From assembly GCF_014192335.1 (NCBI RefSeq), contig NZ_JACHXU010000018.1, positions 1-64,000 of the forward strand: a DNA stretch of 64,000 nt. The letters are read 5' to 3'. Each line of letters begins with the position of its first letter. Position 1 is the first letter of the stretch. The stretch comes from Aporhodopirellula rubra (GTDB lineage: Bacteria > Planctomycetota > Planctomycetia > Pirellulales > Pirellulaceae). Under the pieces are notes generated by a model, which was not told the origin of the DNA, did not search any database, and worked only from the letters and a program-made list of their open reading frames with translations. The translations under genes were made by a program, and so were the position numbers. Below are positions 5,843 through 20,767 of the stretch, piece by piece.

Positions 5843-6466
5843 TTATTTCAGTGGACCGCGGCCGTGGTGTTGGCGGATGCGATTGACGAGCGTCATCGCG
5901 GGGTGGTGCGACCGCAAACACGCGGCAATTCGGCTGGTCGAAACCTTCCAAAACGGTGCCACCAGACTCGGCTGCCCGCCCGCGACGTGCAAATCATTGA
6001 GCAAAAGAGCGATCACCGCGGGTTTCGCGTCATTCTGTTCCGCCATTTTCAGCGGCGAACCACGAAAACGGTCGCGAACGGCCTGCTCCTGCGAATCGGC
6101 GACCGCAGCGTCCGCCAACGGAGACGGCGTCCGCAAACTCACCGCCAACACGTACCGCAGCCTGCGAATCGCGACGTCTCGGTTGCGATGCTGATTCCGC
6201 TCCTCGGTCGCCTCCGCCGTGATCTCGGCCGGCCGGTATGTAACGAATACCCCCGAAGCGGTTCGATTGCGATGCTGGCCGCCCGGACCGCTGCGTGACT
6301 GCGTTCGGAACTCACACTGTTTCAGTAATTCCTCCATATCCCAAACCGACGGATGAGGCGTCGAAGCCATCGACAACGGCATCCGCTCATCCACCGCAGG
6401 CATCACGGGCGTTTGACCAGAATCAGACGAAGATTTTCGATCCGAACGGCGCGATGACTCAGACAT
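5843..6466 (-). CDS. Release-factor-like peptidyl-tRNA hydrolase domain protein (GGQ motif)
   Basis: The protein carries the class I release-factor catalytic loop in the form SGPGGQHRNRTASGV, followed by the basic helix EERNQHRNRDVAIRRLR. It has no codon-recognition domain, so it belongs with the ArfB/YaeJ-like and planctomycete 'release factor-like' proteins that hydrolyse peptidyl-tRNA on stalled ribosomes. With the ATG at 6464-6466 (MSESSRR) it is 207 residues; the frame is open further upstream to 6568 and starts nearer the domain are also possible. About 100 residues follow the GGQ domain, ending in a basic stretch, which is longer than ArfB (about 140 residues in total). Whether the C-terminal tail enters the mRNA channel cannot be judged from sequence alone. 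It lies 114 bp upstream of serS on the same strand. Confidence 0.8.
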   Translation of the reverse strand: MSESSRRSDRKSSSDSGQTPVMPAVDERMPLSMASTPHPSVWDMEELLKQCEFRTQSRSGPGGQHRNRTASGVFVTYRPAEITAEATEERNQHRNRDVAIRRLRYVLAVSLRTPSPLADAAVADSQEQAVRDRFRGSPLKMAEQNDAKPAVIALLLNDLHVAGGQPSLVAPFWKVSTSRIAACLRSHHPAMTLVNRIRQHHGRGPLK

Positions 6467-6722
6467 ATGCGGTTTCTCTTTGCTTATTTTTTCGCGGTGT
6501 TGCGAACACGGCATTTTGGAGGGACATCGAGGTCGGCCAGAGGACGTCATTGATGAACGTGAGTACAAACAAGTGAAAAGTCTGCGTTGAATCTCACTTG
6601 CTCGTACGTCAATCCAATGCGGGTCGGTTCTAAGAACGAAGACTCGGCGTTTGCCAACGAGGGGCAGGGTGTTTGGAACCGGAGTTCATCCCAAAAGCTC
6701 GCCTAAGTACAGGGCCGTGCAA

Positions 6723-7445
6723 TTACGAAATTCGCTGGCCCTGTCTTACGGTGACGGGTGAGCCTTCGGCGACGAAGGCGGAGCACGGGGGTGAGGAGAG
6801 AGGGGCGGCGAATTGCTCTCCGTAAAAACCTGCGAAATCGCCGTCGAGGTTGATCTTCGTCGCTTCCCAGACTCGCCACTGGGGATGTTCGACTTGGTAT
6901 TCGATCGTGCCGCGGTTTTGCTTTGACGAGTAGCCCCAGTAATGTTCGGTGATGAATTCTTCTTGGGATCCGGAATCAGGATAAAACGGATCTCCGGTGT
7001 ATTCAGCTCCGATCGTTAACCAGCGACCAGAGTGTCGCCATCCGTAGGTCGCCTGTCCGTTGGACTGGGGTGTCGGACTCATGAGCGTCGATCGCATCGG
7101 CAATGAAACGTAGTTCTCTTTGTAGATCCATCTTGCCACCGCCGCGATCGCGAACCGTGGCACAACCTCTCGCACAAACACAACGCCGCGTCGCCATTCA
7201 CTGCCGGCTCGATGGCGTACGTAGAACCGCAAATTGACTTCGTCGAAGTTGCGATGAAACGGGATCGGAATCCCCAGTACCTTCGTATGCAAAAATTGGA
7301 ACGCAACCAGGCTGACGAATGTCTTGCCCTCCCAAAAGTCCAATTCCGTTCCGTTTGGAATGAATTCGCGGAGTGCGTCGGGATTGATCTCGAAATTCAA
7401 CATCACGAGCCGGCGCCATTGAGCGGTCAAAAAGGGAGCATTCAT
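6723..7445 (-). CDS. DUF2071 (YqjF-like) family protein
   Basis: The 240-residue protein matches the DUF2071 pattern: an N-terminal LTAQWRRLVMLNFEI, then NPDALREFIPNGTELDFWEG, FVSLVAFQF, and the NLRFYVRH segment followed by a block on acetoacetate-decarboxylase-like beta strands. Family members are soluble, have the acetoacetate decarboxylase fold and lack a firmly established function. The gene starts inside the stop of the upstream kinase gene (ATGA overlap at 7442-7445), so the two are almost certainly translated together. No catalytic residue assignment is offered. Confidence 0.8.
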   Translation of the reverse strand: MNAPFLTAQWRRLVMLNFEINPDALREFIPNGTELDFWEGKTFVSLVAFQFLHTKVLGIPIPFHRNFDEVNLRFYVRHRAGSEWRRGVVFVREVVPRFAIAAVARWIYKENYVSLPMRSTLMSPTPQSNGQATYGWRHSGRWLTIGAEYTGDPFYPDSGSQEEFITEHYWGYSSKQNRGTIEYQVEHPQWRVWEATKINLDGDFAGFYGEQFAAPLSSPPCSAFVAEGSPVTVRQGQRIS

Positions 7446-9019
7446 GTCGATGTTGCGTCCGAGTCGTCTTTGCTCGCAATTTCAGCGGTCAACTCAGGCG
7501 TAACATCCGCCCACGCGCACAATTGATCGGCATTCCAGTGGCGACAGGCCGGGTCCGGGTGAATTAAGCCTGAGAGAACGTCTCGAAGTTCCTCGGAGAC
7601 GTTCAACGCTGGCCAATCCGCCGACGGAACGGTCGCCCGTTTGAGTTCGAGCAGATTGACGGGATCACGGTCTTGAAACAATCTTCGCCCGGTGGCTAAC
7701 TCTGCCATCACGCAACCCAACGCGTACCAATCCGAACTCGGGGTAACCGCATCGCCGCACAATTGCTCGGGTGCCATGTATGCGGGTGTCCCCTTAATGT
7801 AAAGATCCGCCTGATCCTGGTCCAAATCTTGGCACAGCCCAAAATCAGCCAACGCTGCTCGCCCGGTTCGGTCGAGCAACACGTTCTCGGGTTTGATATC
7901 GAGGTGCACAACATTCTGCGAGTGCGCGTGACACAGTCCGGCCGCGATTTGCCCGATCAATCGACGCACCGTCGGCTCTGCTAAACGTCCATGTTGCCGA
8001 AGCACCTGACGCAGGTCCGTGCCGTCGAACAGTTCGAGAACGAAGAAACGCGTGCGTACGTCAACAAAGGAATCATAAACTTCGACAACATTGCGGTGCC
8101 GTAGATTCTGCAAGACTTCTGACTCGCGATGGAAGAGGTCGACCACTGCCGCGTCATGAACGAAACGGTGGCGGAGCATTTTTAACGCGACGCGGCGTTG
8201 CGGTTCATGCTCAGGGTGGCACTCATAGATCACTCCCATACCTCCTCGGCCGATACATCGAATTAATCGGTATCCACCTAGAATGCGTCCGCACAACGCA
8301 TCGATTTCGCGGCGTCCGAGCCGGTCGCTGACCAATTGACTCAGCGCGATCTCAATTTCGGGAAACTCTTCTCGCAACTCTGCAAACGATTCCGCACTGA
8401 GCGTGAGCGTTTGCACCTCGCCGGTGGCGATCACCGTCGCGGTACAAGTCTCTCCACTTAATAGGGACATCTCTCCGACGACGCTACCGGGGCCGCAATG
8501 GTCGAGCACGGCGGACTCTCCCGATGCCGATGCTTTCCGTATTTCCAGTTGCCCCGCCAAAACGATAAACAGCCCCTGCGTCGGGGAACCTTGGGTCATC
8601 ACCGCATCGCCTTTGACGAAACGGCTCTCGGTAAAGGAGTCTTCAAGACGTTCTGCGACCGTTCTCGTTAGCCCGGCGAACGTGGGGCAATCGATCAACG
8701 CGTGGCGAGCCGTCGAGATGGACGCTAACCTTCCCTCGCCAAGAAACGACGACTCATCCGGGTCAGGCATCACCACGTCGAACAGGCAAATGCGGGACAG
8801 CGAACACATGAAGGATGATTCGCTCTGCCGCGTTCGTAATTGACCGTCCAATGCCAACAACTCCGCGAACATTTTCGAACGCAAGGGTGCGGGGGCTTTC
8901 TCAACCCATTGATTCAACGATTCACGTCCACCCGAAAGCAGCCAAGCGATTTCGAACTCGTCACACAATTGATCGACCGTCGCCAAGTCGTCCGGCGTCA
9001 ATTGTTTACCCTTGGCCAC
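7442..9019 (-). CDS. Serine/threonine protein kinase with N-terminal cyclic-nucleotide-binding fold
   Basis: This 525-residue protein begins with a GTG. A leader of about 110 residues is followed by a cNMP-binding-like beta barrel (115-235, with GEMSLLSGE at 182-190) and a protein kinase domain (250-510). Kinase motifs are complete: glycine loop GRGGMG (257-262), VALK lysine 280, HLDIKPEN (372-379), ADFG (391-394) and APE (416-418). The catalytic loop has HLD rather than HRD, so this is a non-RD kinase, probably not controlled by activation-loop phosphorylation. The phosphate-binding cassette lacks the usual Arg (GETCTATV), so real cNMP binding is doubtful. There is no transmembrane segment, so the protein should be cytoplasmic. 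It is coupled to the DUF2071 gene by a 4-nt overlap. Confidence 0.92.
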   Translation of the reverse strand: MAKGKQLTPDDLATVDQLCDEFEIAWLLSGGRESLNQWVEKAPAPLRSKMFAELLALDGQLRTRQSESSFMCSLSRICLFDVVMPDPDESSFLGEGRLASISTARHALIDCPTFAGLTRTVAERLEDSFTESRFVKGDAVMTQGSPTQGLFIVLAGQLEIRKASASGESAVLDHCGPGSVVGEMSLLSGETCTATVIATGEVQTLTLSAESFAELREEFPEIEIALSQLVSDRLGRREIDALCGRILGGYRLIRCIGRGGMGVIYECHPEHEPQRRVALKMLRHRFVHDAAVVDLFHRESEVLQNLRHRNVVEVYDSFVDVRTRFFVLELFDGTDLRQVLRQHGRLAEPTVRRLIGQIAAGLCHAHSQNVVHLDIKPENVLLDRTGRAALADFGLCQDLDQDQADLYIKGTPAYMAPEQLCGDAVTPSSDWYALGCVMAELATGRRLFQDRDPVNLLELKRATVPSADWPALNVSEELRDVLSGLIHPDPACRHWNADQLCAWADVTPELTAEIASKDDSDATST

Positions 9020-9561
9020 GTTTTTTCTCTTTTTTCAATTTCTGACAACGTATCGTCGTCACGCCGCATCACTCGATTTTGCCTCGCTAGGGCGACGATT
9101 ACCGCGTCAGCCATCGAGACGACCGCCCCCAGAATTTGCCCCGGGGCGTCACTTCCCAGAATACTCTATCATACCGGTCACTTGGCGATGCCTTGAGATC
9201 GCATGGGGCACACAGGGGCAAACGATATTTGGGGCGATCGATTGAGGTCTACACACGAGAGGTTTGTCAGCTTTAATTCTTGGAACGAGATCGGAAGGAT
9301 CACGCGATCCGCAAAGCGTTTTAGCGGCAGACCGCGAGCTATCCGCTTTGGGTGATCGCGAATGTCGTCGGGACAACCGACAATCGGCAGCCCAACTGAT
9401 ACTCTTGCTGAGTTCGGCTACCCTAGGATGAAGCTGAAACGAACTACTCGCCCGAACAGGGCGCGAGACATGACCGAACGCGAGAAAAGAACGCGATCAA
9501 TCCGATCCGACAAGGCTTCCCCCGTAGAACGTGACGACCGAGACGTGTGACCAGGTTTGCA
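9020..9561. other. Divergent intergenic region between the kinase and ECF genes
   Basis: About 540 bp with no credible gene. It must hold promoters for the minus-strand kinase operon and the plus-strand sigma factor gene. A purine tract (AAAAAAGAGAAAAAA on the minus strand) sits just before the kinase GTG and may help initiation. An inverted repeat GGATC-acgc-GATCC lies at 9297-9310. I see no convincing -35/-10 pair. Short frames such as 9362-9550 have no family features and are not called. Confidence 0.5.
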
Positions 9562-10176
9562 ATGGAATTGGAAGAAGATTTATCGACGTGGATCGCCAAC
9601 CTGAAAAAAGGTGATCCCCGCACTCAACAAGAGATTTGGAACGCGTATTTTGCGAGGCTCGTCGCGATGACCCGCAACAAATTGCGTGGCTCGCGTCTGC
9701 GTGAATTCGATGAAGAAGACATTGCGATCAGCTCATTCAACAGTCTCTTCCGAGCGATCGAAGAGGACCGTGTCACTCAGTTGGATGATCCGTCGGACCT
9801 GTGGAAACTGCTCGCAGTGATCTCGGCACGAAAGATCTCCGCACAGTATCGCCGACAAGGCGCAGCCAAACGAGGTAGTGGCCGGGTGCGAGGCGAATCC
9901 GTTTTCATCTCCGCAGACCAAACCGTTAAGCCAGGTCTCGAACAAGTTCTCGGGAGCGAACCGTCACCGGAGATGGCAATGAAGGCAGCCGAGTCGATTC
10001 AGGAACTCATGGAACGTTTGCCCGACCCGAATTTACGCCGTATCGCATGGCTCAAATTTGAAGGCTATTCAAACCAAGAAATCTCGCAAGTGATGAACTG
10101 CGTTGAGCGGACGATCTCGCGAAAGATCGAACGAATCCGATGCCTCTGGACTCACCAGGAAGAGGCGTCGGCATAG
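9562..10176 (+). CDS. ECF-type sigma factor (planctomycete ECF family)
   Basis: The 204-residue protein has a sigma-70 region 2-like helix set (residues 5-95, including DEEDIAISSFNSLFRAIEE) and a region 4 helix-turn-helix at the C-terminus (IAWLKFEGYSNQEISQ and VERTISRKIERIR). This matches the planctomycete 'ECF-type sigma factor' family. Such proteins direct RNA polymerase to a specific regulon; the partner anti-sigma or kinase is unknown. The frame is open from a GTG at 9547, but the ATG at 9562 (MELEEDLSTW) fits the family better. The gene is divergent from the kinase gene, which could make the kinase a regulatory partner, and convergent with the M50 operon. Confidence 0.88.
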   Translation: MELEEDLSTWIANLKKGDPRTQQEIWNAYFARLVAMTRNKLRGSRLREFDEEDIAISSFNSLFRAIEEDRVTQLDDPSDLWKLLAVISARKISAQYRRQGAAKRGSGRVRGESVFISADQTVKPGLEQVLGSEPSPEMAMKAAESIQELMERLPDPNLRRIAWLKFEGYSNQEISQVMNCVERTISRKIERIRCLWTHQEEASA

Positions 10177-10348: not shown

Positions 10349-12478
10349 TTACACGCCAAATAGGTCGCGTGCCATCTGCCACAGATCTTCCCACAAAGGT
10401 TGTGGGGGTAAGTGCACGACCGCCTCGCACCGGACGCCTTCCCATCGCGGAAGTGAATCGATGGACACTCCGATCGATTCGGGGACATCACACACGGCCT
10501 GATAAACTCTCGGGTCGATCTCGTTGCTGTTCTCGCTTGCCGAATCGGGGTCCGCTGTCGAATCGGTCGCATGCAGCGGCGAGACGGCAGAAATTCGTGA
10601 CTCAAACACAGTCGACGCGTGCCCTGGAACACGAAACCGCACCTTACATCCGACCTGCACGTCATGCTGGTCAATTGCATCCATCGACATGGATAGCTGC
10701 AAACGATCCGACGATGCGATTCGGCACCACGAGTATCGATCGTCCGCGGGTTGCCCCACACCGGGAAAGAGGTGAATCGGGTTTTGGTGCAGATCCTTCT
10801 GCGTCAACGGCAGATCACCCGAGGGCAGAATCACCCCGTCCGTGGTCGCGAGCACATCGAGTTTCTGCTCTCGCCGATTCAGCTCGTCCTGTTTCGCCGC
10901 AACCGCTCGCGTCGCCGCGTCGAGAACATCCCACTGCGACTCCGGCGCATGCGTCTGTGATCGCGCCGCGTGTCGATTCTGATTCATCGCCGAACCGAAA
11001 CTTCGATCAGACTGAAGTGACGCCAGTCGTGCGGCGCGAGAACGATGTTCGAGCACACGTGCACGGCCCCGCGTCGACGCAATCTCGAGCGACAGCTCGG
11101 GGTCACTGACACGTGCTAGTCGTTGACCTCGCACAACCTGATCCCCGACATACGCGGTCACTTCTTCGACCGTTCCTTCGGCGGGCAGATAGATACTGTG
11201 GGCGTCTTCACAACGCAGCACACCGTTGGCATGACGATACCGTGGAAACGGGGCGCACATTCCAACGATGAGACAGGCAATCACGGCCAACAAGAGTCCC
11301 CGGCGCCGCAGCGTCGACACCGCGTTCCAACGTCCAGCCCCGTTCCACATTGCCCAACCGCCTTTTAATCTTCGACCAATCGCACGAACGACCGACAAAG
11401 CCATGATGGACGCGACCAACCGCCAGGCGCCCCAACGGTCGGCGATTCCGAGCAACATTGCCGCGATCGCAATCACTAGCGTCATTCGGTACACCGCTGA
11501 CGCACCATGGTAGGCGAGCATCGCCCAACTACGACGGCCTAGGAATCGCCAACGGGTTACCGGTTCGATCAGAAACCGCTGCCACGCACGTCGTGCTTCG
11601 CCTCTCAGGTTAGTACTATCAACGAGGTCACTCAGGATGAAGTAGCCGTCGTATCGCATCAGTGGGTTTGCATTAAACAAGATCGTGCTGACGCCACACA
11701 CCAAAACAATATTCATTGCCGCCAACTGCACTTCGGCGGCCCCCGATAATATCCATGCCCAAATCGCAATCACACACAACACCCCTTCAGCAATCATGCC
11801 GGATGCCATCACCGCGGCGCGACGCATCGCATTGGGTTGCCGCCACACTTCGGTCACATCCACATACGGACACGGCATCAAACACAACATCCATATCCCG
11901 GCAACACCGCAACGGGAGCCCAATCGTCGGCAGGCGGTGGCGTGGCCCAACTCATGCACGGATTTCGTGATCATAAAAATCGCCGCCACACTCAGTGGTT
12001 CCAGCGATTGCAGATACGCCGACAGCGTCGGGATCGAACCGGCCCAACTTTCCCAACGCACGACGATCATGATCAGGCCCGCAATCGCGGCAGCGATCCA
12101 AAACAAGATCGCTCGAGGAGCAAAAACTAGATCACTCCATCGGACCAAACATCGGGCGATGGGATCGATCGACGCGACCGGAATCCGTATCGAGAGTAAC
12201 GACCACGCGGCGCCCGCGGCACGAACTGGACGACTTTCTGTCCATCCCGCGTCGACGGCCTGTTGCCAGAGGGGACCGTCGGCGACCGATGGAATTGCTC
12301 CGAGGGTTTGCGCATCGGTTGGCCGCGAGTTTGCATCAATTGCCTGGCCGCGCACCTGCTCCCAAACCGAACGTTTGACTCTCGCGAATCGCCCTCCGAT
12401 ATCGTCAACAATCACACAATCGCGATTCCCCGACAGTGGCGAAACCTGCAGGTCGCGGCGCAGCGGCGCGGCCGTCAT
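10349..12478 (-). CDS. M50 site-2-type metallopeptidase fused to HlyD-like adaptor
   Basis: The 709-residue protein starts at the ATG overlapping the upstream stop (12475-12478, ATGA); the frame's earlier starts lie inside that upstream gene. Residues 1-100 form a small soluble domain of uncertain family. A polytopic core carries the zinc motif HELGH (175-179) and the third-ligand segment NANPLMRYDGY (about 269-279), both typical of M50 intramembrane peptidases. After about residue 400 comes a HlyD-like half, with a transmembrane segment, a barrel-sandwich motif (YLPAEGTVEEVTAYVGDQV), an alpha-helical hairpin and beta-barrel strands near the C-terminus. It is the last gene of an operon whose two preceding genes also encode HlyD-type adaptors. 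The expected role is membrane proteolysis linked to export across the envelope; the substrate is unknown. Confidence 0.9.
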   Translation of the reverse strand: MTAAPLRRDLQVSPLSGNRDCVIVDDIGGRFARVKRSVWEQVRGQAIDANSRPTDAQTLGAIPSVADGPLWQQAVDAGWTESRPVRAAGAAWSLLSIRIPVASIDPIARCLVRWSDLVFAPRAILFWIAAAIAGLIMIVVRWESWAGSIPTLSAYLQSLEPLSVAAIFMITKSVHELGHATACRRLGSRCGVAGIWMLCLMPCPYVDVTEVWRQPNAMRRAAVMASGMIAEGVLCVIAIWAWILSGAAEVQLAAMNIVLVCGVSTILFNANPLMRYDGYFILSDLVDSTNLRGEARRAWQRFLIEPVTRWRFLGRRSWAMLAYHGASAVYRMTLVIAIAAMLLGIADRWGAWRLVASIMALSVVRAIGRRLKGGWAMWNGAGRWNAVSTLRRRGLLLAVIACLIVGMCAPFPRYRHANGVLRCEDAHSIYLPAEGTVEEVTAYVGDQVVRGQRLARVSDPELSLEIASTRGRARVLEHRSRAARLASLQSDRSFGSAMNQNRHAARSQTHAPESQWDVLDAATRAVAAKQDELNRREQKLDVLATTDGVILPSGDLPLTQKDLHQNPIHLFPGVGQPADDRYSWCRIASSDRLQLSMSMDAIDQHDVQVGCKVRFRVPGHASTVFESRISAVSPLHATDSTADPDSASENSNEIDPRVYQAVCDVPESIGVSIDSLPRWEGVRCEAVVHLPPQPLWEDLWQMARDLFGV

Positions 12479-13515
12479 CGCAGCGGACCCGCGGCGGCAC
12501 GTTGGTTTCTCCACGCGATGTCCGCATCGGAACAATGGATCTGCATCGTCACATCCATACCGGGAGACAATTGCCATCCATCGGCGACGCGCCCTGAATC
12601 ATTCTGTTTGTCTTGACTAACAACTTGGCGACGATTCTCAACTTCGGCATGCAACCGAAAACGGTTCCCCGGCAAACGCGTCGGATCAACCGAAATCACC
12701 TGCCCACGGAGGAAGTTTTGGTTTTGGGAATTGGAGTTTTGCGAACGCGGTTGGGTTGCAGCACCCTCCGTGCCCCGGCGTGATATCGTTCGTTCCGAAT
12801 CGCTCGACCACTGAACCGTCACGGGCAAACCAACGCACCGTGCGGGATCGAGTTGATCGGCGGCGACGAGTGCGTGCAAATGCAACACGCCCGCATCGGC
12901 AATCGTGAAGAGCGGTTCGCCCGCATGAGTCCACTCGCCTAACTCGCGATGCACGTTGAGAACGATTCCATCGATCGGGCTGTTGCATTCGAGCTGTTTG
13001 AGTTCGTGATCGATCATCGCGAGATCCGCCGCCCGGAGCTGCATGTCGATTTCGTCTTGGCGTCGTTGTTTCTGTGCACGTGCCAACTCCAATTCGGCCC
13101 GTTCGGTCGCCAGCTTCATCCGACGCAACTGGTTTCGCGCGACCGCTCCGCTGACACGATCACTCGCCGCTTGTCCGTCATCGAGTTCGGCTTGTGCTTC
13201 GGCAAGAGCGGTTTCCGCATACTGGATTTCAACGTAGTCGTTCAGCATCAATCGAGCCGACTCGTAGCGCAGCGCCGCAGCCCGTCGACGGATCACGAGT
13301 GCAGTGTCGTCGAGCTTTGCGATCGTTTGCCCCTTCGTCACCCATTGATTTTGTCTTGCGTTGAGTTCCGCGACCGGACCGCTCTGCCGCGCCGGCACAT
13401 CGACCTTGCCGGCAAATTCAACGACGACATCCCTCACGACCACGACCGCATCTTCGGCCCGCGAATCCAACGAAAACGCGAGGACGAGCAACGCAAACCA
13501 AAGTGGTGATTTCAT
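12475..13515 (-). CDS. Secreted HlyD-family periplasmic adaptor protein
   Basis: The ATG at 13513-13515 overlaps the upstream stop by four bases and opens a clear signal peptide (MKSPLWFALLVLAFSLDSRAED), giving a 346-residue periplasmic protein. Residues 30-70 (VDVPARQSGPVAELNARQNQ) begin the biotinyl/lipoyl-like domain; a helical hairpin rich in Glu, Arg and Ala runs from about 75 to 150; the second half of the lipoyl domain (CNSPIDGIVLNVHRELGEW) and a beta barrel follow. This is the standard membrane fusion protein layout, but no ABC or RND pump is adjacent. It probably works with the M50-HlyD protein downstream and the GAF-HlyD protein upstream. Confidence 0.88.
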   Translation of the reverse strand: MKSPLWFALLVLAFSLDSRAEDAVVVVRDVVVEFAGKVDVPARQSGPVAELNARQNQWVTKGQTIAKLDDTALVIRRRAAALRYESARLMLNDYVEIQYAETALAEAQAELDDGQAASDRVSGAVARNQLRRMKLATERAELELARAQKQRRQDEIDMQLRAADLAMIDHELKQLECNSPIDGIVLNVHRELGEWTHAGEPLFTIADAGVLHLHALVAADQLDPARCVGLPVTVQWSSDSERTISRRGTEGAATQPRSQNSNSQNQNFLRGQVISVDPTRLPGNRFRLHAEVENRRQVVSQDKQNDSGRVADGWQLSPGMDVTMQIHCSDADIAWRNQRAAAGPLR

Positions 13516-15701
13516 AGATAAACTCCGATGCGGGTTCGTACCCAACTGGCGATGTCTTCAAACAGGAACCAACCGAGCGATGTTTGACCGCAATGTATCG
13601 CTACCCTCGCGGGCGTTTCGGTCAACGGTTGATCGCCCAGCGTCGGAGCCGCCGACAATGTCAGTCGCAGAATCACGCCAGGCGTCCCGTCGACAGGGTC
13701 AGCCACGACAGGCCCAAACCGATGAGGCGTTGCGGAGTGCGAATCGCCGGGTGCCCAACGTGTGGAGACATCCGCGGTGAGGCTGTCGACCGCGATCGCC
13801 TGGTCAACTCGCGCCACGCGTCGTTGCGGGATCGTTGCATCCACAACCCAAGTCGTGTCTTCGGCGATCACGTTCAACACGGCGTCGCCGCGTTTGAGCG
13901 GCCGCCCCGCCAAACGTTCCTGCAACCGCCACGCGTCCACTCGCCCATCACGACGCGCACGGAGGATCAAATCCGATTCACTGTCCGCGATCAAATCGAG
14001 TTGTTGATCGATCGCGTCAATCTCTTCACTGATTTCATGATCGCTTTGCAATTCGCCCGATCCACTGGTCATGTTCCCAGACGCGACGAGGGCATGATTG
14101 AGTTGATCACGTCGCTGCATCAACACGGCCCGGCGTCCCAGCAAAGTCGTTTTCCGCTCGGTAAGGTCACGCGACACCAACGTCGCGAGAACATCGCCCG
14201 CCGACACCGTTTGACCGTGAAAGACGTGCAACTTTTCAACCGTCGCATCCGTAACCGCGTGATAGGTATCGAGTTCGAGCGGGCGAATTAAACCGGTCGC
14301 GGGAATCAGAGACGGGATCGGCAAACAAAGCAACAAGATCGTTGTCAGAGCGATCGCGGTAATCAAACCGGCGCGGCGACGGGCGACGGAATAGATCGCA
14401 CGGGCGTGCCCGGGCTTTCCATCTCGAGCGGATGCAAAATCGATCTCATCATCTTCGGTGGCTGACAATCGATTCCAAAAACGTCCTCCCGGGATCGCTT
14501 CGACTCGGTGCGCGGCCATCCAAGCTTGATGTCCGCCGACGAGCAGTCGTTCGAGCATCATCCGGACTTCGGGGATCGGCTCTTTGAGCTGTCTGGCTTC
14601 TTCGACGGGTTCGAGCAACACCAATCGCCAGCGTGATTCGGGGCGTTGGGCGACGACCCATCGCGGAGCCACCGGGGAAGAGTTCACTCCGGATTTAGGG
14701 GCATTCGAGGACGACTCACGTCGATCGGCGCCGCCACGCCGTTCGGTCTCGAGGGATGCGAACGCAAACGACTTTTGGTTACGCAAAGGCGTTTCCGCCG
14801 CACCGCGAATCGCATCCGCCGCTTCGCTGTGTTGGTCAATCCGATCGACATGACTGACCGCCACGATCCGCGGCCGTCCGCGATCCACACGGACCAACGC
14901 AACCCGCGGGCAATGGATCAAGCGAGCGGTCGCATCCACCCACGCCGCTTCGATCGCTCGCGTCGACGTCAAACGCCCCATTTGGTCGATAACCGCATTG
15001 CATTCTTTAACCGCACCGAGATGCCGGGTAAGTGACCGCAACTGATCGGCTCGCAAGAACTCGCCCGCCAACTCGCCCATTTGTGCGAGAAAACGCAGCG
15101 AACCTCGCTGGCTCGCGGGACTGCCTCCCGGTTCGAGAAATACCTCGATGAGGAAATCAGGCAATGCGGCCGCCGGATCCACCAAGACCGGAACGATCGC
15201 GGCAGGATACTCGGCGGGGTTGGCAGGAACGTCTTCGTCCGATGCCCCCGGCGTGGGCGGCACCACCACGGGAGCGTTCTGCCCGGCGACTTCAATCAGC
15301 AACCGGTCATGAACCGCCGTTGCCGTTGCGTCGAAATGATGATCGGTAATAGTGCCGAGTCGGTGTTCGGCACAGTAGTGAAAAGGGCGGCCACTTTCGC
15401 CAGACGTCGTCGGATCGGTCTGCTCGTCGACCGACATCCAAACCACGACACCGTGAGCGGCCATGGCACGTAAGATGCGATCAGCCAAGAACCGCAGGTA
15501 CTTGTCACGCCCACCGTCGCTCCGCTGCGCCGCGGCAACCTCACGAACGATCTGTGAGATTTCTTGACGCGCCTGATCGACGAGTCCATCGGTTGGCCCT
15601 AGTGTTCCGCCCGGATAAGGCGCACCACTCCCTGCACCGGAGGGAATGCCAGACATGCCCGGTGTGAAGAGAAACGGTTCGCTGGCGACGGTCGCCGTCA
15701 C
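13512..15701 (-). CDS. GAF-like sensor domains fused to membrane-anchored HlyD adaptor
   Basis: A 729-residue protein beginning with GTG at 15699-15701. The N-terminal 430 residues are soluble and look like two GAF-type domains (about 65-225 and 235-375), with a Ser/Arg-rich linker near 320-345. One transmembrane helix follows (443-462, LITAIALTTILLLCLPI), then a HlyD barrel-sandwich (GLIRPLELDTYHAVTDATV), a coiled-coil hairpin (510-570) and beta-barrel strands to the end. Sensor domains should lie in the cytoplasm and the adaptor half in the periplasm. This joins signal input with an export adaptor in one chain. It overlaps the next gene by ATGA and follows the MA-like peptidase gene by 82 bp. 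The GAF assignment is from pattern only. Confidence 0.8.
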   Translation of the reverse strand: MTATVASEPFLFTPGMSGIPSGAGSGAPYPGGTLGPTDGLVDQARQEISQIVREVAAAQRSDGGRDKYLRFLADRILRAMAAHGVVVWMSVDEQTDPTTSGESGRPFHYCAEHRLGTITDHHFDATATAVHDRLLIEVAGQNAPVVVPPTPGASDEDVPANPAEYPAAIVPVLVDPAAALPDFLIEVFLEPGGSPASQRGSLRFLAQMGELAGEFLRADQLRSLTRHLGAVKECNAVIDQMGRLTSTRAIEAAWVDATARLIHCPRVALVRVDRGRPRIVAVSHVDRIDQHSEAADAIRGAAETPLRNQKSFAFASLETERRGGADRRESSSNAPKSGVNSSPVAPRWVVAQRPESRWRLVLLEPVEEARQLKEPIPEVRMMLERLLVGGHQAWMAAHRVEAIPGGRFWNRLSATEDDEIDFASARDGKPGHARAIYSVARRRAGLITAIALTTILLLCLPIPSLIPATGLIRPLELDTYHAVTDATVEKLHVFHGQTVSAGDVLATLVSRDLTERKTTLLGRRAVLMQRRDQLNHALVASGNMTSGSGELQSDHEISEEIDAIDQQLDLIADSESDLILRARRDGRVDAWRLQERLAGRPLKRGDAVLNVIAEDTTWVVDATIPQRRVARVDQAIAVDSLTADVSTRWAPGDSHSATPHRFGPVVADPVDGTPGVILRLTLSAAPTLGDQPLTETPARVAIHCGQTSLGWFLFEDIASWVRTRIGVYL

Positions 15702-15783
15702 GACACAACCATGATCCGAAAGAGTGCGAAACGAGTAAGAAGGAAAACCGCGAACGCGAAACCAAGCAACGTCCGACGTGAGG

Positions 15784-17145
15784 CTATCGCCAAATCGAAC
15801 GAGTCGGAGCTCGATCGATCACGCGTGAATCGAGCACGGCAGGATTGGACGGTATCGATCCCGATGTTTCGGCTTGAGGAGTTGCCGCGGAATAGCGACC
15901 GCTTGCGAGAACCGACGGGGGTGCCCATGTCGGGGTCGAACTGCGTCCCTGTTCCGGTGCGACTGCAGAATTGTCGACTGTGGCCACAGCGACACGGTCA
16001 CCGGGCGGCAACATTTCAATTTCGGTTTGCGGCGAATCCAATCCCTCGGCGCGGCGATGATACCAACCGCTGCCAGAATCGGATTCACTAACACGCCCAC
16101 GATCATTCGCGGCAACGAGGTTACGATTCCGATCCGCGGCGTGTCCACGTGGTGGTCGTGACGTTGCCGCAAGCGCCGTTGCCGGTGCCGATCGACGAGG
16201 CGATCGTGAAGAAGCGTTGCGGGTCGATGTATCGAGAGAGGCGACCGCGGCATCCGGTGCGGCGGCAGCACGCGTGTCCGCTTTGACGAACTGAGCGACC
16301 GGACCACTGCCCGCTTCCACCCACGAGAGCCAGTATTCTTGCAGTTCTGCGAGCGAATCGTATCCGTAGTGTTTTTGCACGTTCGCGGTCCACGACGGAC
16401 GCTGCATGTAATCCTGGAGGAACTCGATGAACGTTTTCGGCCCCTGTTGGGCGATCAAGAATTGACAGACTGAATAGCCTTGAGCGTACATCGGCAACAC
16501 GTCCGCCGGATATTCCGTCAACAGGAACAAACGGTTCATCGCGATGCCGCGACGCGATGACAAGAACTCACGCAGCTTGGCTTCGTGCTTGGTGCGTTCG
16601 GAAACGTGTTCGACGGTCGTGCAAATTCCTTCGTCGGCCCAACGTGGCAACGGACGGCCGAAGAAAGTTGCCAGCACGGTGTGCGTGACTTCGTGAGGCA
16701 GCACACTGTCGAGAATTCGTTCAGGGGTGCCGATGACTTCCATTTGAAAGTCACGCACCGGGGCAGGGTTGTACGTGGTGACGCCTTGGGCGGCGAGATT
16801 CGGCCCTGCGACCACTCGAACCGGACACGGTGCCGGCCAAGGCTGCAATTTTGATCCTGTCCAGTAGGTCGCTAAATCGTCGCGATACCGTTCCGCCGCG
16901 TCGCCGACCGATTTGGCGAGTTGAGGCGTCGGTGCCTCGACTAGAAAATTTTGTGTTCGATAATTCGCCGCATCTGATTCCGATGCCGTCATTAAGACGC
17001 CGATCAGGACGATGAAGAACGAGGCTCCGCACGCCCAAATGGAATGGCGGCGTGTCGACCAAGGGCCGAAATTCCACTGAGGTGATTGCGAGGCGCAGAC
17101 CGAGTGGGTGCGTTGGGCGTTGGCATCCATGCCGTTTGACTCCAT
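15784..17145 (-). CDS. Gluzincin (peptidase MA-like) metalloprotease with membrane anchor
   Basis: A 453-residue protein with one hydrophobic segment near residues 36-58 that could be a signal anchor. The catalytic region carries HEVTH (151-155) and a downstream glutamate in RWADEGI (169-174), the HExxH...E arrangement of gluzincins; it resembles the 'peptidase MA-like' and DUF1570 proteins common in planctomycetes. The remaining fold ends near residue 290 (EYWLSWVEAG). The last 160 residues are low-complexity, rich in Ser, Arg, Ala and Pro, and probably disordered. The start may be the first ATG or the one four codons in (MDANAQ). It is likely the first gene of the M50/HlyD operon. No substrate is known. 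Confidence 0.8.
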   Translation of the reverse strand: MESNGMDANAQRTHSVCASQSPQWNFGPWSTRRHSIWACGASFFIVLIGVLMTASESDAANYRTQNFLVEAPTPQLAKSVGDAAERYRDDLATYWTGSKLQPWPAPCPVRVVAGPNLAAQGVTTYNPAPVRDFQMEVIGTPERILDSVLPHEVTHTVLATFFGRPLPRWADEGICTTVEHVSERTKHEAKLREFLSSRRGIAMNRLFLLTEYPADVLPMYAQGYSVCQFLIAQQGPKTFIEFLQDYMQRPSWTANVQKHYGYDSLAELQEYWLSWVEAGSGPVAQFVKADTRAAAAPDAAVASLDTSTRNASSRSPRRSAPATALAATSRPPRGHAADRNRNLVAANDRGRVSESDSGSGWYHRRAEGLDSPQTEIEMLPPGDRVAVATVDNSAVAPEQGRSSTPTWAPPSVLASGRYSAATPQAETSGSIPSNPAVLDSRVIDRAPTRSIWR

Positions 17146-17424: not shown

Positions 17425-18057
17425 ATGATTTTGATCGGCACCATGAATTTGACGCGGACGCGCGAAAGGGGCGAATTTTATTGTCCCACGTGTGGTGCCA
17501 CGCAGTCCTATCGTTTGCGAGCCCGACGTCCTTTCCTGACGCTCTACCTAATCCCCACGGTGCCGATCGGCGCACCTGAGCTCTTCGTGCAGTGCGATCA
17601 GTGCAAATCGAGTTGGGATGAGACCGTTCTTCAAATGGACCAAGCCACGCATCAAATGGTCCAAGAAGAAAAGTTCCGCGACGAAGCGATTCGGTCGGCG
17701 GTCTTGATGACCTTGGTCGACGACGATATCAGCGAACCGGAAATTCAAACGCTGCTCGGGTTGTCCGAAGTCCTCTTTGATCGACCGACCGACCGCGAAG
17801 AACTCGGCAGGCTGTGCTCGATCGCCCGACACGCGGGCATCCAAGCTAACAACTATGTGTTGACCGTTTCCAAGCGATGGACGATGCAACAACGGTTGCT
17901 CGCACTGCAAGGCATGTTCTTGGCCGCCACCGCGTCCGAAGACGATGTCAGCAAGAAGAAACTCGCGACGCTGCACTCGATGCGAGACCTACTCGAATTA
18001 ACCGACAAAGAATTCGAGGCGGCGATCGACGACGCACTCAACTATGACGTCGTCTAA
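17425..18057 (+). CDS. Zinc-ribbon TerB-like protein
   Basis: A 210-residue cytoplasmic protein. The N-terminus has a four-cysteine zinc ribbon (FYCPTCGATQSY near 19-30 and FVQCDQCKSSW near 61-71) around a hydrophobic strand-rich insert (RRPFLTLYLIPTVPIG). The C-terminal part is an all-helical TerB-like domain (about 85-205) with acidic turns such as LVDDDISEPEIQTLLGL and SEDDVSKKKLATL. TerB-like domains often bind metal ions or act in membrane-associated stress complexes; the function here is not established. The start at 17425 (MILIGTMNL) fits related proteins. The 3' end overlaps the convergent membrane protein gene by 20 bp. Confidence 0.75.
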   Translation: MILIGTMNLTRTRERGEFYCPTCGATQSYRLRARRPFLTLYLIPTVPIGAPELFVQCDQCKSSWDETVLQMDQATHQMVQEEKFRDEAIRSAVLMTLVDDDISEPEIQTLLGLSEVLFDRPTDREELGRLCSIARHAGIQANNYVLTVSKRWTMQQRLLALQGMFLAATASEDDVSKKKLATLHSMRDLLELTDKEFEAAIDDALNYDVV

Positions 18058-20767
18058 GCGTTGAAACCAACACGCATCCCCACGTTACAAATGCCAGAAC
18101 AACGGTCGGTGTGTACCACCACGGCGTGTAACGAAAATCGACCCGCCAACTGCCGGGAGGACAGATGAACCCTTGCGACAAGAAGTCGACCGGGAACACC
18201 GCTGCGTCCATCGATTCCCCCGCACCCTCAGTCGAAGTCAACTCGACGCCCCAGTAACCGTCTTGGTAAACTCGTCGCGACATGAGAACCGGTTCGGACG
18301 TCTCGACAGTTGGATCATGCCCCAGCGGATTCATCAAGATTGGTCGCCGGACCGTTGCCTCATCATTCGGTTGAACACGGCTCGCAACATCCTCTGAAAC
18401 AAACGCCGGGGGATTGTCTTCTTCGCTCGCCAGACGCTCGAGCATTTGCCGCCAAGCGGTTGCCCGATCCGAATCCAACACGACAACGTTTTCGTTTCGT
18501 CGAAGAACATCCCAACAATCATGATGCTGCCCAGATTCATCGAATACTTCAAATTCGATCTGAGGTAGCCGGTCGCCCGTGTCTTTCGTTGTCGGTTCAT
18601 TAGGCAGCGGATCGCTCATTCGGAGATATCCTGCCACACCGAGCATCCGACACCAACTTCGCCATCGTTCGGCACGCGGTGACTTCAGTTCCTTGTCCAA
18701 TGCCTTCGCGTGATACCAGAATTCCGCTAGCTCGCGTGATCCGATTGAGACCATGTTGTTGATCACCGCCTCGCCGTGTTCGAGATGCCAACGCCCGAAT
18801 CGGGCACGACGAAGCCCAACCTCCACCGTCATCATGCGATCTTCGCTCGAGGTTTCGGCCCAAGATTTGGGGAGCCCGTCGTTGTTATGAACCCGCATCC
18901 ATCGCAATGAAGCGTCGTTATCGATAACGTCAACCTGATTCGATTTTAGCAAACTCGCTTCGCGATCTCGGTCGATCCGCGGAACGAGCCCGAAGTTTGC
19001 CACCATTAAATCGATCGCGATCACTGCGACCAGCCACTGAGTTCTCGCACCACGCACACACAATCTCGCCCCACACCATAAAACCACTCCAACAACGGCG
19101 ACATGCATCAACGCGAAAAGGAAACCGCGACCTGCGGCATCCACATCAAACGGTCCCCAGAACGGATCGGTCGAGTTCCATGTCGAGCTTTGAAGCACCG
19201 ACATCACGCTGAGGAAACTCACCAATATCACACCGCCGACGCAGACGACAACCAACAGAGACTTTCGTTGAGATGGCCCAAAGCCACCCTGAACCGCGTC
19301 CCGCCGCCTCCATACCAATCCCCAACGGCGAACTCCGATTGCTGAACCAATCGCGACAGCGAGCGCCGCAAAAGGCAACCACTTCGAGGGATATCGCAGA
19401 GAATCGTAGCCGGGAAGAAACTCATGCAGGAACCAGAATGGACCTCCCCATCGCCCCGGAAGCCGCATCCACGATTCAGGCAAAGAAAACGTCGAGCCGA
19501 TCGCATTGAGCAATCCGTTGATGGCCAAAAATCCGCTTCGCAGCACGTAGGCGGGCCCATATTCGCCACCCGCACTCACAATTCCCATTAGGAAAACAAC
19601 ACACCACGGCCACATCATCCCGATCCGCCATCGCCGGTGACGTTTCGTCAAACGAACGAGGACGGCGCCGGCGATCAGGATCGGAAACAAAATTCCGCAA
19701 TACAAGGATGGCGTCCAAAGCGACGTCGCCGCACGATTGACGCCTCCATCAAACACCAACCGGTCCCAACGCGTATTAATCGGCCACGGTGCTCCATAAA
19801 GGTTCGGCAACGCGAACTCCATTGCTCGCCAAGGAGGCACCGAAAACGCGTATGCCTGCGCATCGATCTTCGACGTCGCGGGCCCGCCTGCTCGCTGCAC
19901 CCGATCACTGCGAGCCGACCAGGCTACCGAAGCGACGATCTGCGGCGACGCCATCAATGCAGCCAGGACACAAACCACCACGATCTGTTTGAGACATTCA
20001 CCGGCATCTGCAAACGGTCGATGCCTAACCGCTGCGGAATCCCAACCGCGTCTCCCGTGGTTCCACAAACGTCCGCCAACGCGAAGCGACTGCACGACCG
20101 CACCAACGATCACCGCGTGTAATGCGGTCGGCGGATCACCACCGAGAATCACCAGCGTCATCGCCACGGCAGGTGTGATGACCGATCGGCAATGCTTCGA
20201 TAACAACGGAACCAAAATCAGTGGCAACCAAGCCGCGCCAACCAAGAACGGTGGATTGGTGGCAGAAAACAAAACGATCCCGGAGAGCGGGTATACCAAA
20301 CCGGCCACACTGGCCGACCAGGGATCACAGCGGAGACATCGGGTCGCGTGGTATGCCGTCAGCGAAGCAATCACGAGGTGCAGCACAACGTAAACCGCAA
20401 TCGCGGTCTCGGCAGACCAGGGCGGTGCATAAACCAACATTCGCAGTGGATAGAACACCGCCGTCGTGGTTTCTCCCGCGAGCGGCATTCCCGTTTGATC
20501 GAGAGGATTCCAGATCGCACCGCCGAACACACCCCACGGTTGCGCGCGAGAAAGTGTCGCGACCCATTCATAAAGCGGTGTGTAAAAGTAACCGACGTCT
20601 CGAAACGCCAAGCGATCGCGTCCGAACAGAACACTGGCGAAGATCACCAACAGACACGTCGGAGCCACGACCGGAGCCAAAACCAACCACGAGCATCTGC
20701 TGAGAAAAGATTGACCGGGAACGGATTTACCCGACATGGGGTCGCCACACACCGGGCTGCGAGTCAT
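18038..20767 (-). CDS. Large polytopic membrane protein (YfhO-like)
   Basis: The 909-residue protein has about a dozen hydrophobic segments, with an N-terminal pattern like YfhO and related GT-C-type proteins: a first transmembrane helix, a periplasmic loop holding WNPLDQTGMPL and a string of helices to about residue 600. A large soluble region (about 610-860) and a final helix near the C-terminus (VVLAFVTWGCVLVS) follow. YfhO-family proteins are thought to act in glycosylation of lipid-linked or wall polymers, which is inference here. The ATG at 20765-20767 directly follows the stop of the AIM24 gene (TAGATG), suggesting coupling; an alternative start is ten codons later (MSGKSV). It is the last gene of its operon. 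Confidence 0.75.
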   Translation of the reverse strand: MTRSPVCGDPMSGKSVPGQSFLSRCSWLVLAPVVAPTCLLVIFASVLFGRDRLAFRDVGYFYTPLYEWVATLSRAQPWGVFGGAIWNPLDQTGMPLAGETTTAVFYPLRMLVYAPPWSAETAIAVYVVLHLVIASLTAYHATRCLRCDPWSASVAGLVYPLSGIVLFSATNPPFLVGAAWLPLILVPLLSKHCRSVITPAVAMTLVILGGDPPTALHAVIVGAVVQSLRVGGRLWNHGRRGWDSAAVRHRPFADAGECLKQIVVVCVLAALMASPQIVASVAWSARSDRVQRAGGPATSKIDAQAYAFSVPPWRAMEFALPNLYGAPWPINTRWDRLVFDGGVNRAATSLWTPSLYCGILFPILIAGAVLVRLTKRHRRWRIGMMWPWCVVFLMGIVSAGGEYGPAYVLRSGFLAINGLLNAIGSTFSLPESWMRLPGRWGGPFWFLHEFLPGYDSLRYPSKWLPFAALAVAIGSAIGVRRWGLVWRRRDAVQGGFGPSQRKSLLVVVCVGGVILVSFLSVMSVLQSSTWNSTDPFWGPFDVDAAGRGFLFALMHVAVVGVVLWCGARLCVRGARTQWLVAVIAIDLMVANFGLVPRIDRDREASLLKSNQVDVIDNDASLRWMRVHNNDGLPKSWAETSSEDRMMTVEVGLRRARFGRWHLEHGEAVINNMVSIGSRELAEFWYHAKALDKELKSPRAERWRSWCRMLGVAGYLRMSDPLPNEPTTKDTGDRLPQIEFEVFDESGQHHDCWDVLRRNENVVVLDSDRATAWRQMLERLASEEDNPPAFVSEDVASRVQPNDEATVRRPILMNPLGHDPTVETSEPVLMSRRVYQDGYWGVELTSTEGAGESMDAAVFPVDFLSQGFICPPGSWRVDFRYTPWWYTPTVVLAFVTWGCVLVSTLRRRHS

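Follow-up and report, generated by a model that had tools for sequence, protein, structure and literature searches.

A module of HlyD, GAF-HlyD and Peptidase_M50-HlyD genes accompanied by a secondary SecA_DEAD gene has been described previously (Kamneva, Poudel and Ward 2015, PMC4452313). The parts of that paper that cover the module propose a type-I-like secretion role for its SecA-linked form, call its broader role "completely unknown", present an expression reanalysis in Methylobacterium extorquens, and make no mention of LEPR, adhesins or cargo. Beyond this reanalysis no published export experiments on the module were found in the portions of the literature consulted, and the portions of PMC4452313, PMC10868602, PMC7730722 and PMC8277102 that were consulted contain no link between the module and a leader sequence. 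A copy of the module is present in Aporhodopirellula rubra as a four-gene operon on the minus strand, at 10349–17145 of a 64,000-nucleotide stretch that was analysed as a whole (positions 1 to 64,000 of contig NZ_JACHXU010000018.1, assembly GCF_014192335.1; hereafter the window). The three core proteins in the published account of the module are common to this operon, and one of six locus types distinguished below (type E) fits the published locus as described there. The window copy belongs to type A; unlike the published module, it has neither an adjacent SecA gene nor an adjacent TolC-like channel gene (OEP), and carries a gluzincin-like metallopeptidase gene and a GGQ release-factor-like gene instead.

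Judged from sequence, the chances are about even that the M50-HlyD module of the better-equipped relatives would export large proteins beginning with an LE-x-R-x-LL leader, as a multi-part machine independent of ABC transporters; the window operon is its type A form, to which no SecA, TolC or cargo gene is linked. Export is proposed because the module is linked in these relatives to TolC-like channels, SecA-like ATPases and leader-bearing proteins, because its adaptor parts have adaptor folds, and because its catalytic residues are invariant.

Results

Operon structure and locus types

The first-pass annotation described four genes on one strand, the last three joined by ATGA overlaps, and open reading frame (ORF) analysis of the window agrees (Table 1). 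The overlaps place the start of gene 3 most likely at 13515 and that of gene 4 most likely at 12478; 82 nucleotides separate the end of gene 1 from gene 2. Gene 1 encodes HEVTH with WADEG downstream, and its Pfam match to Peptidase_MA_2 (27.4 bits) lies under the cut-off of 32.4. HlyD_3 is called by Pfam in gene 2 (36.2 bits) and in gene 3 (58 bits), the latter with a start that resembles a signal peptide. Across 20 orthologous loci the GAF/HlyD and M50 genes are paired in every case, with the HlyD adaptor in 19/20 and the metallopeptidase in 10/20, and given this recurrence the arrangement is more than chance.

M50-HlyD genes are widespread. The genus yields 75 matches (E 1e-15) distributed over 13/13 genomes, with five further genes in the genome of the window itself, and a sample of the family has matches in 99 of 100 genomes. 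All 75 genus genes, together with ten type-A orthologues from the family, make up a set of 85 loci (window included) that was annotated with profiles built for this analysis; the genus genomes are related, so that locus counts are not independent events, and contig ends truncate some of the loci. Type A (n = 21) has GAF/HlyD and M50 genes, with HlyD in 20, the gluzincin in 11, GGQ in 18, and OEP and SecA in none. Type B (n = 13) has HlyD in all 13 and one OEP nearby, and type C (n = 10) has neither HlyD nor OEP. OEP is present in all 12 loci of type D, both OEP and SecA in all 13 of type E, and OEP in 11 of the 12 of type F, where SecA is found in none; this content was itself part of the basis for naming types D, E and F, and the later tree needs 9 label changes against a minimum of 7. 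In the M50 tree, type A and Rhodopirellula maiorica L135 form one clade (22 rows, support 100); across the tree, types A to D are separated from types E and F and the proteobacterial forms, the root serving for drawing only. Four loci are untyped (L065, L066, L081 and L098). At L065 (G010:C201) the M50-HlyD copy is broken into two ORFs at a contig end, and at L098 (G008:C11:22600-42500) M50, HlyD and GAF/HlyD-type genes adjoin an RND-like gene of 1081 residues and a further adaptor. The type C locus L012 consists of a GAF/HlyD and M50 pair with no HlyD adaptor, preceded by fatty-acid desaturase and class IV aminotransferase genes.

Linkage to channels and SecA

TolC-like genes are present in 36 of the 37 type D, E and F loci. 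No such gene is linked to the window operon; its genome contains four unlinked TolC-like genes that are related to the type-D channel, plus three beside trios.

The SecA proteins of the genus fall into three classes by score and length. Third-class genes lie beside M50-HlyD in 13 of 14 cases and those of the other two classes in 0 of 26, a count based on 40 of 41 matches, with the weak sub-cut-off fragment G010:C489 left out. Second-class SecA is present in 13/13 genus genomes, never within 12 kb of M50-HlyD there, and the copy in the window's genome is L101 (G000:C23:17000-36900). Among named planctomycetes, SecA genes nearer to the second class do adjoin the trio, for example at L176, L177, L188 and L204, where they score 812–837 bits for the second class and 334–353 for the third. 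Since kin of second-class SecA are found beside the trio in these relatives, the lone L101 protein may serve an unlinked trio. Beside type A itself no SecA is found (0/21 loci), and with it the secondary SecA_DEAD gene of the published module is missing.

Leader-bearing candidate cargo

Leader proteins were defined by LE-x-[RKM]-x-L-L close to the start and a length of at least 500 residues, frames truncated at the edge of the fetched sequence being accepted as well. Such proteins occur in 28/37 D/E/F loci, 0/34 A and B loci and 2/10 C loci; counted by ORF, the pattern is present in 28/197, 0/274 and 2/98, respectively. The pattern was widened once after the data had been seen, and its first, narrower form gave 21/37 D/E/F loci and two of type C, compared with 28/37 and two. 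The curated LEPR-XLL profile points the same way: across the genus, 14 of its 51 matches lie within 12 kb of M50-HlyD (expected 1.0), as do 13 of the 21 in frames longer than 2000 residues (expected 0.4), expectations that treat related genomes as independent. An independent check used 80 named loci that had played no part in finding the pattern, taken from genome contigs that gave the best matches to the window protein among the matches listed, with nearest-type labels that are crude, one reference standing for each type. Here the leader is present in 4/7 loci with OEP and 7/73 without it (Fisher p 0.006).

None of the 28 motif-bearing proteins of the 85 loci, two of them from type C, attains a hydropathy of 2.2, a value attained by 83% of 69 HlyD adaptors; the measure is a simple window average rather than a signal-peptide predictor. 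Orphan leader proteins, in which LAGD(A/T)G follows the leader, are also found away from any M50-HlyD gene (L116-L119, L121, L124 and L126).

No leader-bearing large protein is linked to type A (0/21 loci). An all-against-all comparison of the 22–130-residue ORFs within 4 kb of type-A operons gave no cluster shared by more than three of the 21 loci.

Homologous operons in other phyla

Two tblastn queries against plasmids recover M50-HlyD in 73 and 79 records, and 13 plasmid regions, hand-chosen from the listings and so non-random, were read. Annotated giants of 2,347–16,239 residues are found in 9/13, in each case upstream of the adaptor gene or the TolC gene, and in three of the nine a DUF3467 gene intervenes; the soil bacterium Azospirillum brasilense Sp7 has one such operon, with a DUF4347 giant. 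L102 and L109 have a long frame in the giant's position that is absent from the gene table. TolC is annotated in 6/13 regions, and profiles identify a SecA-like gene in 6/13 (L102, L103, L104, L109, L110 and L111), with SecA annotated in one. N-terminal sequences were read for eight of these nine annotated giants, and 8/8 carry L/I-E-[PA]-R-x-[LM]-[LF]. Their bodies are variously named DUF4347, tandem-95, LamG, Ig-like, VCBS and LEPR-XLL, and the eight proteobacterial giants have no strongly hydrophobic N-terminus (highest 12-residue hydropathy 1.0–1.7). In Halomonas cupida (L198) a large frame with the leader comes after the trio.

The trio is not always found beside an ABC or RND pump, as the first-pass annotation had allowed it might be; the instances seen are the RND-like neighbour at L098 and, in Phyllobacterium L113, an ABC exporter about 3 kb off on the opposite strand. 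On the Escherichia coli IncF plasmid L107, TolC and an Ig-like giant accompany an M50-HlyD operon; matching plasmid records number 18 for Escherichia and 8 for Citrobacter. A small DUF3467 gene precedes the adaptor genes in the proteobacterial operons L102, L110, L111 and L112.

The M50-HlyD and GAF/HlyD proteins

Gene 4 joins a Pfam PF02163 match (29.3 bits, cut-off 27.2) to a HlyD half that matches MacA (3fpp, E 8.8e-14). Its AlphaFold model (pLDDT 85.3) has, besides a small unit at the N-terminus and the adaptor half, a long-helix bundle that holds HELGH; alignment and model both put HExxH and the distal Asp within membrane helices. Loss of the M50 active site among homologues, another doubt raised at first pass, is not seen: H208, E209, H212 and D310 are invariant in 58/58 aligned homologues. 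HExxH is present in 84 of 85 M50-HlyD genes, the exception being a broken copy.

The N-terminal domain of this protein is PqqD-like in some types. The profile was built from types B, C and D and hence favours them; it is strong in these and weak or absent in E and F. In type A it is undetected in the window protein (none at E up to 10) and in 12 of the 20 others, marginal in six, and matched across the first half of the domain in L040 and L041. Despite this miss, the gene 4 model has a small beta-helix unit at 44–84. The PqqD-like assignment is sub-threshold throughout, with TIGR03859 found in 6/15 proteins of types B, C and D and Pfam PqqD in 1/58. NCBI labels three plasmid homologues as PqqD family.

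The model of gene 2 (pLDDT 85.4) consists of two alpha/beta units, a long connecting helix and an adaptor half that matches AcrA/MacA adaptors in Foldseek; residues 433–458 are likely a membrane helix in this model. Pfam calls GAF_3 in 5 and GAF in 4 of 15 type-A N-terminal halves of GAF/HlyD, and PF01590 in 12/55 homologues of all types together. A PDB profile search with the type-A half (E up to 1) returns two designed coiled coils only and no GAF structure, which counts against an easy GAF assignment. The 50 matches listed by Foldseek for the gene 2 and gene 4 models are all adaptors, and the GAF and PqqD-like assignments thus rest on sequence profiles and secondary structure. GAF/HlyD, HlyD and M50/HlyD are encoded together in the window, the GAF part being backed by homologues and model.

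The resemblance of the adaptor halves to efflux-pump adaptors fits a different role, in which the trio would serve small-molecule efflux together with an RND or MFS pump encoded elsewhere, and the L098 locus, where an RND-like gene and a further adaptor adjoin the trio, agrees with it. This role is very improbable: L098 is the single such case noticed in 85 loci, although an RND profile was not run on all of them, and we know of no role for an intramembrane protease with an invariant active site in pumps of this kind.

It is also conceivable, if rather unlikely, that type A exports nothing and acts in signalling by regulated intramembrane proteolysis, with the GAF-like half sensing a cytoplasmic signal, the adaptors scaffolding the periplasm, and the M50 protease and the gluzincin cutting an envelope protein. 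An intact active site, the sensor-like half, the lack of a linked channel, motor or cargo, the PqqD-like domain being undetected in the window and 12 of 20 other type-A proteins, and the gluzincin in 11/21 type-A loci would all suit such a system. Without a channel, however, it is hard to account for the presence of three complete MacA/AcrA-type adaptor halves, and no regulator is conserved in linkage. A block of ECF sigma factor, kinase and DUF2071 genes beside the window operon, considered as a conserved route of sigma-factor signalling, was rejected as such: the full block recurs just in L022 among the 20 orthologous loci, and in L023 a contig end cuts it after the ECF gene.

Surroundings of the operon and the GGQ gene

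A Pfam scan finds no ABC, RND or outer-membrane channel gene among the nine other main genes at 1454–21958, in agreement with the first-pass annotation, and an ORF with ABC-type motifs at 225–1235 lies about 9 kb from the operon. With no ABC ATPase or permease in or next to the operon, the annotation was also right that this is not a standard type I exporter. One of the nine, an ORF of 909 residues at 18038–20767 beside an AIM24-family gene, has no Pfam or NCBIfam match and is found only in L022 and L023 among the 20 orthologous loci.

Table 1. Features of the operon and its type-A neighbour in the window
Feature	Position	Strand	Remarks
Gene 1, secreted gluzincin-like metallopeptidase	15784..17145	-	453 aa, HEVTH; genus-level operon addition; 11/21 type-A loci, window counted
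Gene 2, GAF-like tandem + membrane helix (likely) + HlyD adaptor	13512..15701	-	729 aa, GTG start; HlyD_3
Gene 3, secreted HlyD adaptor	12475..13515	-	start placed by ATGA overlap
Gene 4, M50 intramembrane protease fused to HlyD adaptor	10349..12478	-	start placed by ATGA; longest ORF reaches 12577
ATGA overlap, genes 2/3	13512..13515	-	sequence
ATGA overlap, genes 3/4	12475..12478	-	sequence
GGQ release-factor-like gene (PF00472)	5843..6568	-	usual downstream neighbour of type A

The GGQ gene is present in 18/21 type-A loci and lies immediately beside the M50 gene in 16 of these; in the window it is separated from M50 by three genes at 6723–10176 (DUF2071, a cNMP-binding kinase and the ECF sigma factor). 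Orthologous loci retain it at 36–80% identity to the window copy, and GPGGQ is intact in 17/17 aligned. Such persistence could mean that type A cooperates with the GGQ protein, for example in freeing or clearing stalled chains at the membrane. This is improbable, as 73 of the 100 family genomes have a GGQ-family gene and many of these have no type A, the type-A loci L040 and L041 have no GGQ gene nearby, and three genes intervene in both the window and L022. An obligatory partnership was rejected outright, since G006 and G011 of the same genus have orthologues despite having no type A; the GGQ gene is retained in this rival role only.

Discussion

The proposed exporter would work as follows. 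The M50 protein would take up the leader and cut or hold it at the membrane, while a periplasmic tube, docking on a TolC-type channel, would be built from its HlyD half together with the remaining two adaptors; where a SecA-like ATPase is present, it would power transport. In the window, the GAF-like half may switch the complex in response to a cytoplasmic signal, and channel, motor and cargo would be supplied from elsewhere in the genome. The PqqD-like N-terminal domain is reduced in the window protein, so that the cargo of type A is probably of another kind than the leader proteins.

The first-pass annotation had suggested a sensor-controlled export or maturation device, possibly for a small peptide, which has no adjacent channel gene. 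Its outline holds, along with the intact protease site and the sensor-like half. The small-peptide idea finds no support, as the family is linked to large cargo proteins that bear the leader and small ORFs near type A form no widely shared cluster. Nor is the absence of a channel a feature of systems of this kind, given the TolC-like genes beside homologous trios and the SecA-like ATPase in the 13 loci of type E.

Several observations weigh against an exporter of leader-bearing proteins. Function does not follow from gene linkage, and no cargo, channel or motor is linked to type A in any of 21 loci. Within the genus, 37 of the 51 LEPR-XLL matches are distant from any M50-HlyD gene. The link between leader and channel in the 80 named loci, although it runs in the same direction, is clearly weaker, which indicates that leader-type starts are not rare in Planctomycetes. 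Several proteins of types E and F, whose cargo is the best linked, show the PqqD-like domain weakly or not at all, and the recognition element of TfuB1 (E 0.064) is outranked by a plain winged-helix protein, FurB (0.0021). Pfam calls no GAF domain in the window gene 2 protein, and the RND-like neighbour at L098 leaves room for efflux in some members.

A more far-reaching version of the exporter reading is put forward tentatively, its failure being likelier than its success. According to it, the M50-HlyD module would be a separate exporter class, independent of ABC transporters and Sec signals, in which a PqqD-like domain reads the LE-x-R-x-LL signal, an intramembrane protease integrated in the tube processes it, and a SecA-like motor drives transport. 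The window branch would have lost the domain that reads the leader as well as the motor, channel and cargo genes once linked to it, and would have been turned to a different cargo under GAF control, perhaps with the GGQ protein as a ribosome-rescue factor.

The link between module, TolC and leader provides a candidate cargo class for the SecA-linked module published in 2015 and a candidate function for the LEPR-XLL domain. Type A retains the core with no motor, channel or cargo linked to it, and invites the question what purpose an intramembrane protease fused to an adaptor has in such operons.

Comparison with known systems

Type I secretion of giant adhesins shares the adaptor with the window operon, and in the window's relatives a TolC-type channel and a giant surface protein as well. 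Unlike type I systems, these operons have no ABC transporter (the window has none in or beside its operon) and combine three adaptor halves with an intramembrane protease. Type I secretion cargo carries a C-terminal signal, whereas the candidate cargo of the relatives has an N-terminal leader.

The M50 leader proteases of ribosomally synthesized and post-translationally modified peptide (RiPP) pathways (daptide HExxH NF041824; YydH/LiaK NF058609) are the best NCBIfam match of the M50 half. The daptide family leads with 111.8 bits over 282 residues, far under the curated cut-off of 300; the adaptor fusion also sets the window protein apart, and no small precursor gene was found. PqqD and other RiPP recognition elements resemble the N-terminal domain of types B, C and D, with all scores under curated cut-offs, but the likeness is undetected in the window protein. 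The trio itself is already published together with SecA, and the window copy is its form without linked SecA or TolC.

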